From Halorubrum californiense DSM 19288 (GTDB lineage Archaea; Halobacteriota; Halobacteria; Halobacteriales; Haloferacaceae): a DNA stretch of 37,693 nt. Position numbers and translations under genes: made by a program. Under the pieces are notes generated by a model. That model was given only the letters and a program-made list of their open reading frames with translations, did not search any database and was not told where the DNA came from. This document shows positions 3-34,271 of the stretch, in pieces (within the stretch, counting starts at the first letter, position 1; the number at the start of each line of letters is the position of its first letter). The stretch is taken from NCBI RefSeq assembly GCF_000336875.1, contig NZ_AOJK01000078.1, forward strand, positions 1-37,693, read 5' to 3'.

Positions 3-311
3 CAGACGGACGCGCGGGAACGCCGCGAGCGGATCGGCGACCGGGTCGAACTGCTCACCGACCGCCTCTCGGAGGACCACGACGACCTCGAAGACGCCGG
101 CGAACGCACCAACGAGGAGACGCCCGCCGCGGACGCGGACGCGTACGACAGAGCGGGCGAAGCGGCGGACGAGCAGTACCGACGCAACGTCGAGAACTGG
201 CGGCTCGACAGCATCCTCAGGCGGTCGGTGGAGGCCTCGACCGTCGAGGAGGAGGCGCCGGAGATCGCGGACCAGGCCCACAGGCGCGTCGAGGCGGGTG
301 AGCGGTCGTGA
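3..311 (+). CDS. Hypothetical charged helical protein, C-terminal part (gene cut by window edge)
   Basis: An open frame enters from the left edge and ends at the TGA at 309-311; no start lies in the window. The visible 102 residues are almost all charged or helix-forming (runs of Arg, Glu, Asp, Ala) with one Trp near NVENWRLDSIL, and no motif I recognise. The stop overlaps the GTG start of the next gene (GTGA at 308-311), so the two are probably translationally coupled. It is the first visible member of a four-gene co-directional set ending in an AAA+ ATPase. Function unknown; a coiled-coil or adaptor subunit of that set is inference only. Confidence 0.7.
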   Translation, partial: QTDARERRERIGDRVELLTDRLSEDHDDLEDAGERTNEETPAADADAYDRAGEAADEQYRRNVENWRLDSILRRSVEASTVEEEAPEIADQAHRRVEAGERS

Positions 312-916
312 AACGCCGACAGAGCGTCGTCGGCGACGCCGAGGACAACGTCTCCCGGTGGAAGTCGCTGTTGAGCGACGTGAAGGGCCTGTTCTCGGAG
401 GCCGACCGCCTCGAAGGTGACGTCGAGCGCACGAGCGAGGAGATCGACGGCGCTTGGGACGACACGTCCGGGGAGGTCTCTCGGGTCGATCGCGAGGTCG
501 CGAAGAGCGTCGACCGACAGGCGAGCGACCGACGGGCGGACTCGGAGTTCGACCGGAGCGACGCCGCCGACCCGCCGAAGGCGGTCCCAGACGTCGAACC
601 GGTCCACGGCGACCCGGACCTCCCGGGCGACGCAGACTACGAGATCCCCGACCCCGTCAGCGAGGCGGAGATACGCGACGAACTCGGCGGCATCGAGGAG
701 TCCGAGCCGGTCGCCCGCGAACGCGCCACGCCGTTCACCGAACTGGAGTGGTTCGAACTGCACTCCGCCCAGTACCCGATCGGCGAGGAGCTGTTCGAAC
801 CCGACCCCGAGCGCAGCCTCGCCGACGAGGCCGAAGACGCGGGCGACGCTCGGGTCGGCGAGCGAGACACCGAGCGGGACCGCGACCGGGAGACCGGTCG
901 CGAGGAGGGATCATGA
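308..916 (+). CDS. Hypothetical acidic protein of the AAA+ operon
   Basis: A 202-aa protein starting at a GTG that overlaps the upstream stop; a purine-rich GGGTGAG lies just upstream. Residues 1-75 are predicted helical and charged (two heptad-like stretches, around 10-35 and 36-70). Residues 80-130 are Pro/Asp/Glu-rich and probably disordered. A short hydrophobic-aromatic block, FTELEWFELHSAQYPIGEEL (about 142-161), is the only part that looks folded or protein-binding. The tail is again Asp/Glu/Arg-rich. No signal peptide or membrane segment. It overlaps the next gene by ATGA (913-916). I do not recognise the family. Its position between two helical proteins and an ATPase suggests a small structural or linker subunit (inference). 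Confidence 0.75.
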   Translation: MKRRQSVVGDAEDNVSRWKSLLSDVKGLFSEADRLEGDVERTSEEIDGAWDDTSGEVSRVDREVAKSVDRQASDRRADSEFDRSDAADPPKAVPDVEPVHGDPDLPGDADYEIPDPVSEAEIRDELGGIEESEPVARERATPFTELEWFELHSAQYPIGEELFEPDPERSLADEAEDAGDARVGERDTERDRDRETGREEGS

Positions 917-3570
917 GCCTCGACGACCGTGGTTCCGGAGTCGACCACGCCGCCCTCCGGCGGCTGACCGCGGGCCGCGGCGACCCCGACCAACGGGCCG
1001 CGGATGCGACGGCCCTCGGCGAGGACGGAGACGGCTCCAGACGCGTCGTGCGCGCGCTGGTCCAAGCGCTGTGGGACGACGAGACGGTCGTCCGCGCCGC
1101 CGCCGAGTCGGCGCTCGAACGACAGTTCCGGTCGACGGACGAAGCGGGCCGTCGGATGCTGGTGAACGTCCTGTTCGTCACGCTGGCCGGCGACGCGGAC
1201 CCGCCCCGGGCTGTCACCTCGTTCCTCTTCCGGTTGGTCGGCTGGGTCAGGAGCAACCGGACGACCGAGCCGGACCTCTTCGCGACGGTGCTGACGGAGG
1301 CGGAGCGCGCCCGCGAGGGGGGAAGCTACTCCCAGCCGGTCAGCCGCGCGCTCAAACAGCTGTACAACGCGGGGACGAACGACGAGACTCGGTCGACGGA
1401 ACTCCTCGGGTCGTTCAACCGGCGACGGGCGCTGGACCAGCTCCGTTCCGAGACCGCACCGCCCGGCGAGGTCGAGTACGCCCTCCGCCTCCTCGGCGAC
1501 AGACCGGTCGGGGACGCGAGCCTGGAGGTGTTGCTGTATCCCCTCCTCCCGCTTCGGATCGCCCACGACTATCAGGTGATGAACAAGGCCGTCGGGAACC
1601 TCAAGCAGTGGTCCGACGAACTCCCCCAGTCCGACCGGTTCGAACTGGCGAACGCGGTCGAGGAGGTCCGCGCGTTCCGACGCGGCGACCGCGAGGCGCT
1701 ACCGGGACGGCTCCGCAACGAAATCGCGTTGAGCGAGGTCGGCGTCGACGTCCTCGTTTCGGAGCTCGACCGACTGCGTGACCTCGCGCAGTACGAGCGG
1801 GTGGTCCCGTCGGTCCTCGACACGCTGTCCGGCGTTCACGGCGTCCGCGAACACGTCGACGCGATCACGACCGTCGCCGCGGAGAACGACGGCCGCCAAC
1901 GGAGCCGCGCGGTCGACGTCCTCTCTGGGGTTCTCACGGGGCTGGACGCCGAAATCGATCACAACCGAGACCGCATCCGCGCCAGCTACGACGACGACGT
2001 CGCCGAGACGGACGACCGGGTCCGAGAGCTGTTCGCCGAGCTCGCTGCGGCCTCGCCGCTTCCGGAGGCGGACCTGCGTCGCGTCGTGCGCGAGCTCGTC
2101 CGCTCTCGACCGCAGGACGCGACCGATCGCATCGCAGAGCTGATCGCCGACCGCCCGGCGGACGACTCCGTCGTCGAGACCGTTCTCGACACGGTGGCCT
2201 CCGAGTCGATACTCGACGGGACGGCGCCGATCGTGCGCCTGTTCGAGCGGCTCGCGGACGAGGACCCGGAGGGGGCGCTCCGGGCCGCCGAGACCCTCAA
2301 AGCCCTCGGCCACGACGAGGCCCGACGAGCGCTCGAAGACGCGATGTCGGGGCAGGCGGGTCGCGTCGCCGACGGGGCCCGCGAGGCGCTCGTCACGGGC
2401 GGCTTCTACGAGCGCGTCCGAGCCGTCGAGACGCGCTCGCGCTCGACGGAGCTGGCCGCGCGAAGCGAATCCGCGGAGGCCGATCGCATCGACGCGGAGG
2501 CGGACCGGCGTGCGGCGCGTTCGGAGTACAAGCGACTCGAAGGGCAGCTTCGCGAGGAGGTGTTCGAGGCCGACCAAGCGCTCCGTCGCGGCTTGGCGGA
2601 GGTGATCGAAGCGCGGATCGACTCGCTCGACACGCTCGTCGAGCTTCACCTCGCCGACCGGCGCGTCGAACGGCTCCTCGAGGCGGCGCGCTCGCGACAC
2701 GGGGAACTGGGACAGTACGTCGACCGGGTCGTCTTAGGCGAGGACGTCCGGGCGGGGATCCGCGAGGAGTTCGAGACGATCGAACACGACCTGACCTATC
2801 TGGAACGGCTCTCCGCCGGCGACGGCGACCGAGCGGCCGAACTCGACGACCGACTGGCTGATCTCGACGCCGGGAGCCGAGTGGAGTCCGACGTCGATTC
2901 CCCCGACGACGAACACAGAGCGGCGTTGCTCGAGCGCGAGCGCGAGTCGCTGCGCGAGCTCCGGGACCGGTACCGGGCGGCCGCCGACGAGCGGTCCGCT
3001 CGCGTCTCCGAGCTCCGGTCGGCGTTCGAGCGGGAACGGCGGCGGTTCGACGCCGCGAGCGTCGACGGCGTCGCGACGGTCACGAACGTCCAAGACGCGA
3101 TCGACGCCGTCGAGCGGCGGTCCGCCGAGGTGGAATCGCTGGTCCAGCGCCGCGAGCGCGATTGGGAGCGCGTCACGGCCGCGGCCGATCGGCGTGACGA
3201 GTCCGTCGCAGAGGCGTTGGCATCGCTCGAGGACACGGCCGGGGAGCTGGCCCGGACCCAACGCCGGATCGACGATCTCACCCGAGAGATATCCGACAAG
3301 CGACTCGACCAGCAGCACAGCTCCCAGCGGAGCAGAGACGAGAAGGAGACGTACGGAGAGATCGAACCGCGCGCCCGCGGCGACGCCAGACACCGCCACG
3401 AGGTGGCCACCGACCGCGCGTCGTTTTACGAACACCGACAGGTGTACGAGGCGTTCATCCGTCGGTACTACGAGACGCAGTTGGACGTGGTCCGCGACCG
3501 CGACTTCCGGGACCGGCACGCGGACCAGTTGGCACGGATACAAGATGAGCTAACGGACCACATGGAGTGA
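913..3570 (+). CDS. HEAT-like repeat plus coiled-coil protein (885 aa) of the AAA+ operon
   Basis: The start is the ATG at 913, preceded by a strong Shine-Dalgarno (GGAGG at 904-908) and overlapping the upstream stop; the frame stays open upstream to 454, but that part is shadow of the previous gene. Residues ~10-500 form successive antiparallel helix pairs typical of HEAT/ARM-like solenoids (for example RRVVRALVQALWDDETVVRAA at 43-63). Residues ~505-600 and ~620-800 are heptad-rich, Arg/Glu-rich coiled coil. The C-terminal ~60 residues (RASFYEHRQVYEAFIRRYYE region, 835-854) are aromatic and may be a small docking element. No membrane segment, nuclease or NTPase motif is visible. It ends 6 nt before the AAA+ ATPase gene. 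A long scaffold or adaptor remodelled by the ATPase is the most natural reading, but it is inference; no family is recognised. Confidence 0.8.
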   Translation: MSLDDRGSGVDHAALRRLTAGRGDPDQRAADATALGEDGDGSRRVVRALVQALWDDETVVRAAAESALERQFRSTDEAGRRMLVNVLFVTLAGDADPPRAVTSFLFRLVGWVRSNRTTEPDLFATVLTEAERAREGGSYSQPVSRALKQLYNAGTNDETRSTELLGSFNRRRALDQLRSETAPPGEVEYALRLLGDRPVGDASLEVLLYPLLPLRIAHDYQVMNKAVGNLKQWSDELPQSDRFELANAVEEVRAFRRGDREALPGRLRNEIALSEVGVDVLVSELDRLRDLAQYERVVPSVLDTLSGVHGVREHVDAITTVAAENDGRQRSRAVDVLSGVLTGLDAEIDHNRDRIRASYDDDVAETDDRVRELFAELAAASPLPEADLRRVVRELVRSRPQDATDRIAELIADRPADDSVVETVLDTVASESILDGTAPIVRLFERLADEDPEGALRAAETLKALGHDEARRALEDAMSGQAGRVADGAREALVTGGFYERVRAVETRSRSTELAARSESAEADRIDAEADRRAARSEYKRLEGQLREEVFEADQALRRGLAEVIEARIDSLDTLVELHLADRRVERLLEAARSRHGELGQYVDRVVLGEDVRAGIREEFETIEHDLTYLERLSAGDGDRAAELDDRLADLDAGSRVESDVDSPDDEHRAALLERERESLRELRDRYRAAADERSARVSELRSAFERERRRFDAASVDGVATVTNVQDAIDAVERRSAEVESLVQRRERDWERVTAAADRRDESVAEALASLEDTAGELARTQRRIDDLTREISDKRLDQQHSSQRSRDEKETYGEIEPRARGDARHRHEVATDRASFYEHRQVYEAFIRRYYETQLDVVRDRDFRDRHADQLARIQDELTDHME

Positions 3571-3576
3571 CCACAG

Positions 3577-5616
3577 ATGGGTAACGACACCGACGCGGTC
3601 GATCTCGGCGCGCTCCCGCGCTGGAGCGAGCGCCTCATCGACCGCCTCGACGACGAGTACGGCATCAGAACGGGCGAACTCGCCGATCGGAACTTCCCGG
3701 ACGACCGGCCGCCTCGGTGGCTTCAGGGGACCGCGACGGGCGGCGGCGACGCCCCCGACTGGATTCAGAGCTTCTGTCTCGACGCGGACCCGGCGGTTCG
3801 GCGCCTCTGGGTCGAAGAGGGGTTCCTCTCGGCGGACCCCGCGTGGCTCGAGACGCTCGTCACCGGCGACGAGGCCGACGTCGCCCGGGTGTTCCTGCTC
3901 ACCGGCAACGTCGACGACTACGCGTTTTCGCCGGACTCCGGGTATCTCCCCGCGATCGATCGGATCGAGGAGAACGCCGCGAAGCGGAAGGACTGGGTGA
4001 TCCGCTACTCGCTGTCGAACGGGTTCGAGCGTCCCGTCAGGGGAGTGGCGACGCCGGACGACGACCCGTCACCGTTCGACGACCTGGAGATCGACCCGAA
4101 CGGAGACGGCGCGGCGGACCGGACGAGGAGCCCGCAAGAAGCGCTCGACGGTGACGTCCGCGTGATGGAGGAGCTGCTGGAACGGTCCTACGACGGGGGG
4201 ATCGCGCTGATCGTCGACAACCTCCACCTGCTCTCACCGCCCGACTCCGCGAACGTGAACCAGAACGTCGTGACCGACGCGATACAGCGGTGGGCGCGGT
4301 CGCCGTCGATGTTCCAGAGCGAGAATCAGGTCGTCCTCCTGGCGGGCTCCTCGGAGGGACTGACACGCGACCTCCGGTCCGCCTCCAGTCACATCGAGAC
4401 GATCGACGTCCCGCGCCCGGAGGACCGCGGCGACCGGCTGAAGTTCCTCGCGGCGCTGTACGCCGGGGGCCGGGTGGCGCCGATGAGCGGGATCCGCCTC
4501 GACGGCGCCACGAGACCGCGGTTCGACGACCGGTTCGGCTCCGGCATCACGGAGCAACTCCGGACGCTCGCCGAGCGGACGTCGGGACTGAACCTCGTCG
4601 GGCTGGAGAACCTCGTCCTCCGGGTCAACGCGGGCGACGAGCGGCAGTTCACGACGGAGTACGTCAAGCGGGCCAAGCGCGACCAACTGGCCCAAGAGAG
4701 CGGCGGCATTCTCGAGGTGTCCGAACCCGACCCCGGGGTCGACCCGGAGTCCGCCTTCGAGGGGGTCGGCGGGCTTGACGCGGTCAAAGAGCGGCTGATC
4801 CGGATCAGCGATCTGATGGAACGGGCCGGGACCTCCGAGACGGTCCGCCGCTCGCTGCCGAGCGGCCTCCTCTTCCTCGGGCCCCCCGGAACGGGGAAGA
4901 CCCTCGTCGCCCGCGCGTTCGCGAACGCCTGCGGCGTCAACTTCGCGGAGCTGGGCAACATCCGGTCGATGTACGTCGGCGAGTCGGAGCGAAACCTCTC
5001 TCAAGCGCTCGATCTGATCCGATCGCTGACGCCGGTGGTCGTGTTCATGGACGAGATCGACCAGACCATGGGTCGTCGGGGGAGCGGCGACGAGAGCGGC
5101 GTGGATCGGCGGCTGTTCGCGCGGATCCTCCAGTTCATGTCCGACCCCGAGCTGGACGGACAGGTGATCTGGATCGCCGCGAGCAACGAACCGACGCGAA
5201 TCGATCCGGCGCTCAAGCGGGCCGGGCGGTTCGACCTCACGGTGCCGTTCGTGCGCCCCGACGCCGAGGCGCGCCGTTCGATCCTGCGCGTCCACCTCCG
5301 CGACCGCGACGCGGCCGTCGACCTCTCCGCGGCCGACTGGGACTGGCTCCTCGACCGGACCGCGGGATACACGGGGGCCGAACTCGAACGCGTCGCGAAG
5401 GAAGCCATCTGGACGGAGCTGTCCGCCAGCGGCGGGCCGGCCGACGTCACCGTCGACGGCGACTCGGTTCGGGCGGCGCTGGCGGCGTACAGCCCCCCGG
5501 CGAACCGCCGCGAGTTCCGGCGGATGGAAGACGACGCGCTCGTCGAGGTGACGTCCGTCGACATGCTCACCGAGTCGCAGCGAGAGCGCCGCGAACAGCT
5601 GGTGAACGGAGAGTAG
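3577..5616 (+). CDS. AAA+ ATPase with degenerate first and intact second AAA module (Ycf46/Cdc48-like architecture)
   Basis: A 679-aa AAA+ ATPase. The C-terminal module is complete: Walker A GPPGTGKT (435-442), Walker B VVFMDEID (488-495), sensor-1 Asn in AASNEP (537), arginine finger in KRAGRFD (548/551) and sensor-2 region GYTGAELERVAKEA (597-610). The N-terminal half (about 100-350) reads as a second, eroded AAA fold: a first strand FLLTGNVDDYAF with no P-loop, a Walker-B-like LIVDNLHLL (211-219, DN instead of DE) and a helical lid up to ~365. This two-module layout with a dead first domain is seen in the Ycf46 family and relatives; substrates there are poorly known. The start ATG follows GGAG (3564-3567), 6 nt after the upstream gene, so it is the last gene of the operon. 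It probably remodels or unfolds a protein assembly using the upstream gene products (inference). Confidence 0.9.
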   Translation: MGNDTDAVDLGALPRWSERLIDRLDDEYGIRTGELADRNFPDDRPPRWLQGTATGGGDAPDWIQSFCLDADPAVRRLWVEEGFLSADPAWLETLVTGDEADVARVFLLTGNVDDYAFSPDSGYLPAIDRIEENAAKRKDWVIRYSLSNGFERPVRGVATPDDDPSPFDDLEIDPNGDGAADRTRSPQEALDGDVRVMEELLERSYDGGIALIVDNLHLLSPPDSANVNQNVVTDAIQRWARSPSMFQSENQVVLLAGSSEGLTRDLRSASSHIETIDVPRPEDRGDRLKFLAALYAGGRVAPMSGIRLDGATRPRFDDRFGSGITEQLRTLAERTSGLNLVGLENLVLRVNAGDERQFTTEYVKRAKRDQLAQESGGILEVSEPDPGVDPESAFEGVGGLDAVKERLIRISDLMERAGTSETVRRSLPSGLLFLGPPGTGKTLVARAFANACGVNFAELGNIRSMYVGESERNLSQALDLIRSLTPVVVFMDEIDQTMGRRGSGDESGVDRRLFARILQFMSDPELDGQVIWIAASNEPTRIDPALKRAGRFDLTVPFVRPDAEARRSILRVHLRDRDAAVDLSAADWDWLLDRTAGYTGAELERVAKEAIWTELSASGGPADVTVDGDSVRAALAAYSPPANRREFRRMEDDALVEVTSVDMLTESQRERREQLVNGE

Positions 5617-5696
5617 CCGCCGCCGCTCGACGGAGGCTCTCCACCGCGGGGGATCCGCGGACGGGCGCCGCGGGCGTGTGACCTGCTCACCCTCGA

Positions 5697-8141
5697 TCAG
5701 TCGGCGGCGGCGGGCGTCTTCGCCGGCTCGGAGTGCGCCTCGGCGTCCTTCGGCGCCGGGGTCCACTCTAACTCCTCCTCGTAGCGGAAGGCGCGGTGGT
5801 CGCGCGTCGGGTCGACGACGGTCAGTGAGAGCCAATCGTTGTCCAGCAGTCCGGCCACGGCCTCGTTGTCGGCGAGGATCTCGGTGACGCGGTCGACCGG
5901 CGCGTGGACGACCGTCGAGAGCCGGAGCGGTTGGTGGTACGGCTCGTCGGCGGCGGCCTTGACCGACTGGAGCGGCAGGCCCGTCATCAGGTCGCCGCCG
6001 TTGCCCTGATACACGCCGACGTTACCGACGGGGTTGTGGGTCACCTTCGAGCCGCTCCCGTACGCCGCGTTGTCGACCGTCGAGAAGTAGTACTGCGCGT
6101 TGATCCACTGCGTGACGACCATCGGACCGGCGAGGATCGCTTCGAGCGCGTCGCCGTCCGGGTCGGTCGCCCAGTCGTACGAGTGGAGGAAGGCGCGCCC
6201 GTCGAGGTCGAGGTCGCTCGTCAGTTCGCGGGGGCCGACGACGAAGCCGGCGTTGCCGGCGAGCCCCCACTCGGGGCGCGTCTCGGCCCAGTCGGCGGCG
6301 CGGCGCTCGGTCTCGCGAACGGCCGCGTTCCCGGCGTCCGGCCCCGTGCGCTCGGCGGCGGCGCGCTCGCGGGCGTCGGCGAGGTCCGAACGCAGCCGTT
6401 CGAGGTCCGCTGCGTGCGAGTCGGGAACGCCGCCGTCGTACAGTTCGATCTCGTCGGTCGTCGTGTTGTGTTCCGCGGCGAGGAAGACGGTGTCGTCGGG
6501 CACGTCGATCCCGCGCTCGCGGAGCCCCGCCTTCACCGCGGGGTCGTTACAGATCGCCGCGAGGACGCGGGCGCTCGGCCCGCCCGGGTTGCCGGCGCAG
6601 GCGCCGCAGTCGAGGCTGGAGTCGTAGGGGTTGTTCGCCGTCTCGGCGGCGTGACCGGTGAAGACGACGAGGCGACCGAACGCCTCCCAGCCCATCAGAT
6701 CGAACGCGGTCGCGGCGTACTCGACCTTCTCGTCGGGGGACAGCCCCGTCGGGAGACCCTCCCCGGTGTCGTCGTGTTCGTGGACGCCCGGCTCGCAGAA
6801 CTCGTGGTCGTCGGGCACCGCGTCGTCGGCGCCGTCGAGCAGGTCGTACACCCGACCCGGGACGAGCGTGCGCGCCGCGAGCGCGAGGCCGTACCCGCTC
6901 CCGGCGCCCTCGACGAAGCTGAACGCGGTGCCGGGGTTCGACCGCAGCGTCTCGATCGCCTCGCTCGCGGCCTCCCGCAGGCCCGTCCAGCGGTCGCGGC
7001 TCGCCCGCGCGTCGCCGTCGGTCGGGACCTCGGTGACGCGGTGTTGCGGGTCGAGTATCGGCGGACAGGCGTCGATCGACACGTCCGAGTCGTAGCCGCG
7101 GTACTCCATCGGGACGCCGAAGAAGCCGGCGTAGCCGTGCGTCTCGTAGTCGCCGGTCGCCTCGACGTGCCGGCGGATCACCTCCGAGCGCGTGTCGATA
7201 CAGAAGACCAGCTGGGCGTCCGGGCGACCCGACGCGCCGCCGTCGGCGCGGGCCCCGCTCGCCTCGTCGCGCGCCTCGCTCTCGGCGGCGACCCGCTCGA
7301 CGAGTTCGTCGCGGTACGTGGCCTCCCACGCGGTCAGGAACGCGTCGGCGATCTCGTGGCTCGCGTCGACCGCCGGACCGTCGGACTCCGGCGGCGGCGC
7401 GAGGTCGACGCCGAACCCGTCAGCCAGCGCGAGCCGCGCCGCGAGGTACCCCTCCGGCGTGATCGGGTACGCGGACTGCCACGCGCCGTCGTCGTCCGCG
7501 CGCTGCTTGAGCAGGCCGGTCCACCCGGGGAGCGCGGCGAACTGCGCCTCGAAGACCGACTCCCACTGCTCTCTCGGATATGACTCCAGCGCGGACTCGA
7601 TCGCCTCGGTCGGCGACGCCGGCAGGTCGGCGACGACGCCGGCGTCGGGGACCGCGTCGTCGTACGCGGCCACCGACCGGAATGCGTCGTAAAACCCCGC
7701 CTCGCGGTTCGGCATCGCCCACTCCGCCCGCCCCTCGTCGAGGAAGGCCGCCAGCCACTTCGTCAGCACGCGGTCGACCCGCTCGGCGGCGGGGTCCGCC
7801 TCCTCCGTACCGTCCGAACCGCCCGCCTCGTCCGTCTCCTCGGCGGCCGCCAGCCGCTCCAGCAGGGCGTCGGGGTCGGCGTCGTAGCCCCGGTCGGACA
7901 GTTCCGCGTCGAGGCGTTCCCGATCGATCCGCTCCTCGTCGAGGGCCGCGCGGAACGTCTCTGCGCGGGGGTAGCCCCTCCCGCCGAGGAGGTCCGCCGC
8001 CCGGCTCACCGCCTCGTCGAACGGCAGGTCCTCGAAGCCGGAGAGCGGGTTCGCGGTCACGAACGAGTGGACCGGCCAGACCGAGCCGACGGCGGTCGCC
8101 GCCGCGTCGATCTCTTCCTCGACCGCGCGCTCAGTACTCAT
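5697..8141 (-). CDS. dabA: DabA, zinc-containing subunit of the inorganic-carbon uptake complex (DUF2309)
   Basis: An 814-aa member of the DabA/DUF2309 family, the cytoplasmic beta-carbonic-anhydrase-like half of the DAB complex, which converts CO2 to bicarbonate in an energy-coupled, one-way manner at the membrane. The expected zinc site is visible: CIDTR (C314, D316, R318), H497 in VVFTGHAAET and C512 in DCGACAGN. The His-Cys spacing of 15 equals that of the characterised Halothiobacillus protein (H524/C539). The N-terminal family signature SFVTANPLSGFEDLPF is at 26-41. A low-complexity Ala/Glu/Asp insert lies at ~100-120. The start ATG (8139-8141) overlaps the end of dabB by 11 nt, so the two are one operon. 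Function rests on the family and on partner adjacency; activity in a haloarchaeon is inference. Confidence 0.93.
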   Translation of the reverse strand: MSTERAVEEEIDAAATAVGSVWPVHSFVTANPLSGFEDLPFDEAVSRAADLLGGRGYPRAETFRAALDEERIDRERLDAELSDRGYDADPDALLERLAAAEETDEAGGSDGTEEADPAAERVDRVLTKWLAAFLDEGRAEWAMPNREAGFYDAFRSVAAYDDAVPDAGVVADLPASPTEAIESALESYPREQWESVFEAQFAALPGWTGLLKQRADDDGAWQSAYPITPEGYLAARLALADGFGVDLAPPPESDGPAVDASHEIADAFLTAWEATYRDELVERVAAESEARDEASGARADGGASGRPDAQLVFCIDTRSEVIRRHVEATGDYETHGYAGFFGVPMEYRGYDSDVSIDACPPILDPQHRVTEVPTDGDARASRDRWTGLREAASEAIETLRSNPGTAFSFVEGAGSGYGLALAARTLVPGRVYDLLDGADDAVPDDHEFCEPGVHEHDDTGEGLPTGLSPDEKVEYAATAFDLMGWEAFGRLVVFTGHAAETANNPYDSSLDCGACAGNPGGPSARVLAAICNDPAVKAGLRERGIDVPDDTVFLAAEHNTTTDEIELYDGGVPDSHAADLERLRSDLADARERAAAERTGPDAGNAAVRETERRAADWAETRPEWGLAGNAGFVVGPRELTSDLDLDGRAFLHSYDWATDPDGDALEAILAGPMVVTQWINAQYYFSTVDNAAYGSGSKVTHNPVGNVGVYQGNGGDLMTGLPLQSVKAAADEPYHQPLRLSTVVHAPVDRVTEILADNEAVAGLLDNDWLSLTVVDPTRDHRAFRYEEELEWTPAPKDAEAHSEPAKTPAAAD

Positions 8142-33350: not shown

Positions 33351-33374
33351 CGGGTGGAACGCATACGACGGGGT

Positions 33375-34271
33375 ATGGGAATCCTCTCTCGCGCCTCCTA
33401 CGTCATCCGCTCGAAGGTGAACACCCTCCTCAACCGGGCGGAAGACCCGACCGAATCGCTCGACTACTCGTACGAACAGATGCGCGACGAGCTTCAGGAC
33501 GTCAAACAGGGGATCGCCGACCTGACGACCCAGAAGAAGCGCCTGGAGATTCAAAAGCGCAAGCTCGAAGAGAACGTCGAGAAGCACAACCGGCAAGCCC
33601 GCGAGGCGGTCCAACAGGACCGCGACGACCTCGCGCGCAAGGCGCTCGAAAAGAAGAAGTCGAAGATGACCCAGATCGAGGAGCTGGAGGGCCAGATCGC
33701 GGAGCTCAACAACACCCAAGAGCAGCTCGTCGAGAAGAAGAACAAGCTCCAGAACCGCATCGAGGAGTTCCGCACCAAGAAGGAGACGATGAAGGCCCGC
33801 TACGAGGCGGCCGAGGCGTCCTCCCGCGTCTCCGAGGCGATGACGGGCGTCGGCGACGAGATGGAGGACGTGAGCCGCTCCATCGAGCGCGCCGAGGAGC
33901 GCACCGAGGAAATGGAGGCGCGGTCCGAGGCGATGGACGAGCTGGAGGACTCCGGCGCGTTCGAGGACGCGCTCTCCGACAAGGACAGTATCGACCGCGA
34001 GCTGGAGAGCCTCTCGACGAACAGCGAGGTCGACGCCGAGCTGGAGACGCTGAAGGGAGAGATGGGCAAGGGCGGCTCGTCGAACGGCGACGCGAGCGTC
34101 AGCGACGAGGATGTCGACGACGAACTGGCCGACATCGAGGCGGAGATCGACTCGGACGACCTCGAAGCCGACCTCGACAGCGACGGTAGCTCCGGCGACG
34201 CAAACCTCGACGAGGAGCTCGACGTCGAGCTGGAGGAGTCGGAGTCCGAGGCCGACGAACCGCAGAACTGA
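33375..34271 (+). CDS. pspA: PspA/IM30-family protein
   Basis: A 298-aa peripheral membrane protein of the PspA/Vipp1 (ESCRT-III-related) family. The N-terminal MGILSRASYVIRSKVNTLLNRAEDP (1-25) is the amphipathic membrane-binding helix and first turn of the family. Residues ~30-190 are the long coiled-coil hairpin (KKRLEIQKRKLEENVEKHNRQ). After ~225 comes a hyperacidic, disordered Asp/Glu/Ser tail (to 298) not seen in bacterial PspA, probably a halophile feature. It likely protects or remodels the cytoplasmic membrane under stress. The ATG at 33375 fits the family and the leaderless TATA; the frame is open from a GTG at 33354. Three dyad repeats upstream suggest regulated expression. Confidence 0.93.
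   Translation: MGILSRASYVIRSKVNTLLNRAEDPTESLDYSYEQMRDELQDVKQGIADLTTQKKRLEIQKRKLEENVEKHNRQAREAVQQDRDDLARKALEKKKSKMTQIEELEGQIAELNNTQEQLVEKKNKLQNRIEEFRTKKETMKARYEAAEASSRVSEAMTGVGDEMEDVSRSIERAEERTEEMEARSEAMDELEDSGAFEDALSDKDSIDRELESLSTNSEVDAELETLKGEMGKGGSSNGDASVSDEDVDDELADIEAEIDSDDLEADLDSDGSSGDANLDEELDVELEESESEADEPQN

Follow-up and report, generated by a model that had tools for sequence, protein, structure and literature searches.

The NSF/SNAP/SNARE system and its tethers combine a solenoid adaptor, an AAA ring, membrane-anchored coiled coils and a tether of the HEAT/ARM-coiled-coil type. Here we describe a six-gene operon of Halorubrum californiense DSM 19288 that begins on contig C77 and ends at position 5616 of the window, that is, the 37,693 nt of NZ_AOJK01000078.1 (C78), which is one whole contig. 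The operon encodes, in this order, an α-solenoid protein, a coiled-coil protein with two transmembrane segments, the HEAT/coiled-coil protein A, the small protein B, the HEAT/coiled-coil protein C and the AAA+ ATPase D, and these six coupled genes are the complete unit (hereafter, the core). The core is rare and apparently undescribed, and no description of it was found in the titles and abstracts of the open-licence literature; its motor belongs to a known class, AAA+ remodelling ATPases. Our preferred reading, to which we assign a probability of about 0.4, is that the operon encodes a remodelling machine by which a coiled-coil/HEAT assembly bound to the membrane is dismantled or reset, in a manner similar to NSF and Vps4. 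Its likeness to the NSF/SNAP/SNARE/tether and Vps4/ESCRT-III systems appears to be one of layout, not of homology, and the core proteins searched against Pfam and the PDB sequences gave no SNARE, SNAP or Sec1-type match.

The start of the contig falls inside gene A, so that the window holds the end of this gene and three complete genes:

Positions 3..311, plus strand: gene A fragment, the C-terminal 102 codons of the HEAT/coiled-coil protein A.
Positions 308..916, plus strand: gene B, a charged protein of 202 aa.
Positions 913..3570, plus strand: gene C, 885 aa, with a HEAT-like solenoid in the N-terminal part and a coiled coil in the C-terminal part.
Positions 3577..5616, plus strand: gene D, an AAA+ ATPase of 679 aa.

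The coordinates of these four co-directional frames, joined by a GTGA overlap, an ATGA overlap and a 6-nt gap, reproduce those of the first-pass annotation of the window, which had taken the four genes as one translation unit of an operon continuing past the left edge. The coupling holds, and the unit has six genes, with the first two and most of gene A lying upstream on C77. Because the local DNA has a GC content of about 70%, long frames arise by chance, and conservation was therefore used as the test of gene status. Orthologues in Halorubrum sp. GN11_10-6_MGM (NZ_SGUC01000011.1; genome G007) share 86% (A fragment), 81% (B), 89% (C) and 93% (D) of their residues with the window proteins, with ratios of nonsynonymous to synonymous substitution rates (dN/dS) of 0.36, 0.33, 0.17 and 0.11, respectively. 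In G343, a genome from another genus of the same family, the gene order is the same and the identities are 39% for B, 47% for C and 62% for D. Thus, the four window frames are genes, not chance frames of GC-rich DNA, and they are under purifying selection.

The first-pass annotation had counted two small charged proteins, of which only B remains. The full-length orthologue of A in G007 (L013:13450-16284(-)) has about 944 aa, and its C-terminus corresponds to the 102-residue fragment of the window; the 5' part of gene A makes up the last stretch of contig C77 (L015:8121-10532), and, mapped on G007 by synteny, the end of C77 and the start of the window are about 120 bp apart. A small adaptor encoded by gene A is thereby ruled out, 3-311 being the end of a protein of about 944 aa. 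Profile comparison shows A to be a paralogue of C (hhalign probability 99.3%, E 4e-20, 25% identity); A is 51% identical between the two genera.

C has weak HEAT/alphaRep matches, a PDB fold search with it returned generic HEAT/ARM solenoids alone, none below E 0.001, and its AlphaFold model, of low confidence, is all-helical, with helices of 50-96 residues beyond residue 498. The protein encoded upstream of A has 348 aa; its two transmembrane segments are terminal in both genera (69% identity) and are separated by a coiled coil. The product of the first core gene is a helical protein of about 630 aa, 42% identical between the genera, that matched no family in the searches and owes the label "solenoid" to inspection of the sequence only. 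B has a conserved C-terminal block, WFELHS..PIGE, and no Pfam or NCBIfam family above cut-off. In all three genomes, the neighbouring core genes overlap or nearly touch, with an overlap at almost every junction.

The motor, D, has an apparent two-module layout that resembles those of NSF and Cdc48. Its features, with the motif roles usual for AAA ATPases, are as follows:

Positions 3577..4707, plus strand: N-terminal module, possibly a degenerate AAA fold lacking a P-loop (weak matches only).
About residues 380-640, plus strand: live AAA module (PF00004, E 1.6e-32).
Positions 4879..4902, plus strand: Walker A, GPPGTGKT, invariant in the three orthologues.
Positions 4966..4986, plus strand: pore loop 1, SM(Y/W)VGES, with the aromatic residue kept (Y, Y, W).
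Positions 5035..5061, plus strand: Walker B, VVVFMDEID, invariant in the three orthologues.

The sensor-1 asparagine and the arginine fingers are likewise kept in the alignment of all three orthologues, and the C-terminal module is an intact AAA ATPase of the classic clade with an aromatic pore loop, equipped like the live modules of Cdc48/p97/VAT, NSF and Vps4. The best NCBIfam model for D was CDC48 (TIGR01243), with 144 bits over one stretch only (cut-off 802.65), followed by FtsH and PAN, and CdvC ranked lower (74 bits versus a cut-off of 650). However, Cdc48/p97 has two intact AAA modules and D only one, and in trees D forms a separate, long and deep branch and does not group with the Vps4 encoded in the same genomic island (see below). 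In one tree D joined the Vps4 proteins of genomes G151 and G196, a placement flagged as possible long-branch attraction and not relied on; a constraint placing D with the second modules in the tree was not rejected (p 0.094). Vps4/CdvC proteins are characterized by a MIT domain or ESCRT-III neighbours (PMC10936438), whereas a Pfam scan recognised neither a MIT domain nor a Cdc48 N-domain in D, the island encodes a separate MIT-Vps4, and G343 has no ESCRT-III.

The first-pass annotation had proposed one dead and one live module for D. The live module is confirmed, whereas the dead one is unproven, its similarity not rising above that of shuffled sequence. The N-terminal module has no Walker A or P-loop, and its matches are weak (Pfam ATPase_2, E 0.041; RFC3, E 1.4 over residues 210-269). 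Two stretches within it, IVDNL and VVLLAGS, fall in register with the Walker B and sensor-1 positions of the live module, with 24% of shuffles scoring as high, and the hhalign comparison of the two modules gave E 0.47. A dead AAA module, in a layout like that of NSF or Ycf46, is thus plausible.

To delimit the distribution of the operon, we used the N-terminal module of D in overlapping samples of genomes from the family, order, class and phylum. It was detected in 3 of the 170 family genomes, in 3 of the 392 sampled order genomes (plus one 20-bit match in G087), in 3 of the 391 sampled class genomes by profile search, G087 not being among the matches, and in 1 of the 393 sampled phylum genomes. 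Full-length C, together with its paralogue A, was found in the same 3 of 170 family genomes, always as part of the full six-gene set; weak matches to C in nine other family genomes were mostly short coiled-coil stretches. Accordingly, an ATPase widespread in the absence of the other genes, a possibility raised at first, was not observed, as 3/3 genomes with D carry all core genes, and the upstream genes are not a characterized secretion or pilus locus. The six-gene order is kept in two genera. One could still argue that unrelated genes became adjacent by chance, given that the island is a mosaic whose other modules come and go. However, both genera keep the six genes, their order and their overlaps although the core occupies different chromosomal sites in them, and presence and absence are identical too; these results largely refute such an accident, which is hardly credible. 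An origin from phages or plasmids was rejected as well: the N-terminal module of D had no match in phage and plasmid records, neither this module nor the two-transmembrane protein had a confirmed relative in viral contigs, and no tRNA was present at the loci checked. An AAA match on a Paenibacillus plasmid was discarded as a relative since it sits among unrelated genes; this gene (on L027) and one on the Halorubrum plasmid p117 (L028) are unrelated AAA "ATP-binding protein" genes, both near genes of the DHH/DHHA1 type.

In the two Halorubrum genomes the core is one end of an island of about 30 kb in a variable site, which also contains genes for ubiquitin-like (Ubl) conjugation (E1, E2, JAB), a kinase and an ESCRT-III/Vps4 locus. 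The G343 core has none of these neighbours and sits on its own among other chromosomal genes. When the whole genome of G343 (98% complete) was searched for E2, JAB, the island E1, the zinc protein, ESCRT-III and arCOG08177, none was found, and a distant match of the ThiF type was the only one. Hence, the core can stand alone, without the island partners. It lies there on contig G343:C78 at about 11.7-26.0 kb, flanked by thioesterase and glutaredoxin genes, which are adjacent to each other in many Halorubrum genomes. Thioesterase and glutaredoxin genes are also present in the window, about 6 kb from the island, and the two sites are possibly one insertion hotspot. The core is a self-contained module that is gained as cargo of variable chromosomal sites. 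We have high confidence in this anatomy, that is, in gene content, order, coupling, selection and the island, and in the co-occurrence of the genes.

Several of these observations led us to the reading of the core as a membrane-anchored remodelling machine: the six-gene order kept in two genera with overlaps at almost every junction, the occurrence of D and C in identical sets of 3/170 family genomes, the transmembrane segments at both ends of the 348-aa protein in both genera, the paralogy of A and C, the conserved Walker A and B, sensor 1, arginine fingers and aromatic pore loop of D, the purifying selection on the window genes, and the existence in G343 of a core that lacks the island partners. 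In such a machine, the two-transmembrane coiled-coil protein would hold a helical assembly to the membrane, with the paralogues A and C as its scaffold or tether and the solenoid and B as adaptors. A ring of D, a threading-type AAA ATPase with an aromatic pore loop, would pull on one core subunit, and the assembly would be dismantled or reset, as NSF and Vps4 do with their substrates. Where the core lies in the Halorubrum island, the kinase, E1/E2/JAB and ESCRT-III/Vps4 genes next to it may have a regulatory part or contribute membrane scission, without being required. The initial description of an AAA+ ATPase and a helical-repeat/coiled-coil scaffold forming a unit of no known pathway is supported, as the core matches no described system. 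The proposed layout of scaffold, ATPase and small adaptors stands for the first two, with a membrane-anchored coiled coil and an α-solenoid to be added and "A" moved to the scaffold, and its comparison with gas vesicles is not borne out, no gas vesicle Pfam match being present among the proteins scanned.

Four points weigh against this reading. The co-occurrence rests on about two independent cases, since two of the three genomes are near relatives; the HEAT, solenoid and coiled-coil assignments are generic; and we infer complex formation, substrate, direction of action and role. In addition, the AlphaFold models of D and C, built with 3 sequences only, have mean predicted local distance difference test (pLDDT) values of 47 and 59, too low to use, and such poor models leave D without a fold-level match. 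If the remodelling machine is real, archaea would have a new motor for membrane remodelling that brings its own anchor, scaffold and adaptors. It would then be a test case for how AAA ATPases came to be coupled to coiled-coil tethers, be it before eukaryotes or independently of them.

The patchy distribution and the insertion at variable sites speak for a rival reading, an anti-mobile-element (conflict) system. Here the core would sense or contain invaders at the membrane, D would be the NTPase trigger, and the island would be defence-like: it carries a Mrr-type endonuclease, a kinase resembling those of PADLOC and E1, E2 and JAB proteins that match the respective PADLOC models. However, the six core genes include no recognisable effector (nuclease, TIR, protease or pore), which weakens this explanation, the PADLOC matches of the core proteins themselves are generic AAA or coiled-coil matches, and no defence-like neighbours were seen around the core in G343. 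Type II CBASS (cyclic oligonucleotide-based antiphage signalling system) has an E1-E2-JAB set like that of the island genes upstream of the core, but these genes are not part of the core, and no type II CBASS nucleotide cyclase or Cap effector was found among the locus proteins scanned. D resembles IetA of the IetAS system only as a generic AAA protein, and the subtilisin-like protease partner was not found in the six-gene core. The Zorya system pairs a MotA/ExbB-like ZorA with ZorB; the two-transmembrane protein matches the coiled-coil tail of ZorA only and has no MotA-like domain. A conflict role, already among the initial suggestions, thus has no direct support within the core; we keep it as a rival, although a rather doubtful one.

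The borders of the Halorubrum island are defined by comparison with two island-free sister genomes (G017 and G016). On the left, homology stops at about C77:31186, which puts the left end at about C77:31190, and the right end is as follows:

Positions 5617..5705, no strand: right end of the island, homology with G017 and G016 resuming at 5700-5708.

The flanks are a small membrane-protein gene (about C77:30.8-31.2 kb) and DabA (window position 5697); in G017 these flank genes are neighbours at a distance of about 1.1 kb, whereas in G016 about 6.3 kb with arsenic-type genes separates them. From the left, the island encodes a small membrane protein, MIT-Vps4, ESCRT-III-like, arCOG08177-like and arCOG09748-like proteins, a Mrr-type nuclease, a 217-aa protein, a membrane protein, a PQQ propeller, E1, a SIMPL protein, a HEAT protein, JAB, E2, a 45-aa protein, a zinc protein, a kinase/PQQ protein and the six-gene core. 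The arCOG, MIT and ESCRT-III names were assigned from published descriptions (PMC10936438), sequence inspection and position, and no Pfam model matched the ESCRT-III-like protein. In G007 the island is arranged identically but split between contigs C160 and C20, which apparently meet inside the PQQ gene.

Haloarchaeal ESCRT loci have been classified as Main, Halo_FHA and Halo_adaptin types (PMC10936438). The island locus (L016:2401-4978 and 5299-7907, on C77) is of the known Main type and, among the same-genus genomes compared, has matches in the window's genome and G007 only. As both Halorubrum genomes combine this locus, with its arCOG08177/09748-like, ESCRT-III and MIT-Vps4 genes of the Main type (PMC10936438), and the core in one island, the core might be an accessory of it that serves protein sorting or the formation of vesicles as adaptor and scaffold. 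Kinase and HEAT genes are gene types in common, and they also occur in the ESCRT locus of genome G089. However, the six-gene core is absent from all four ESCRT loci examined in other genomes (G089, G200, G151 and G196), D does not group with the island Vps4, and the core of G343 exists without ESCRT-III and arCOG08177. G343 weakens the case for an accessory role, which we consider unlikely.

G343 bears in the same way on a further proposal, namely that D is a Cdc48-like segregase acting on proteins modified by the island E1/E2/JAB. The three proteins are well supported (PADLOC E values of 2.4e-34 for E1, 5e-20 for E2 and 6.4e-24 for JAB, the latter with a JAMM-like motif by eye) and are encoded just upstream of the core in both Halorubrum genomes, and the CDC48 model is the best-scoring one for the live module of D. 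However, E2, JAB and the island E1 are missing from G343, no beta-grasp modifier was recognised beside E1/E2/JAB, and D has no recognisable Cdc48 N-domain; a segregase is quite improbable. A conserved 45-aa open reading frame next to E2 (L015:1816-1953), 93% identical in G007, could be the modifier or a substrate. The E2- and JAB-like genes, with E1 nearby, are located at L015:574-1793 (C77); the E2 gene has an apparent assembly artefact, a duplicated stretch flanking a single N (L015:1520-1660).

A broader proposal treats the island of about 30 kb as one functional unit, in which the Ubl conjugation set, the kinase, ESCRT-III/Vps4 and the six-gene machine would jointly sort membrane proteins, the motor also being able to work alone. 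We regard this as unlikely. If it is correct, it would extend a ubiquitin-ESCRT link beyond the Asgard archaea, for which the connection is established (2024 survey, PMC10936438). The island does bring genes for Ubl conjugation and for ESCRT together in a haloarchaeon, and in the titles and abstracts of the open-licence literature no other haloarchaeal case of E1/E2/JAB genes next to those of ESCRT was found. Halorubrum can be cultivated and haloarchaeal genetics is established, so that both ideas, the machine and the unit, are testable.

Three membrane or exported proteins of the island end with a shared tail, (D/N/K)-x-Y-G-(E/Q)-(L/I)-(V/T)-(E/D):

C77:31291-31644 (L016:1292-1645): shared-tail protein.
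L016:9740-10213: shared-tail protein.
L016:10255-11865: shared-tail protein.

The same tail ends a fourth small frame in G007 (L014:3240-3398). A DNA pattern for the tail had two matches in the 3.68-Mb genome, both in the island, and a reversed control had none (0); the tail may be a recognition tag. A link between the island and the adjacent DabA/DabB inorganic carbon genes was ruled out, as the sister genomes keep DabAB without the island. Elsewhere in the window, a PspA/IM30 gene, a member of the ESCRT-III superfamily, is present at 33354-34271 (Pfam, 5.7e-33).

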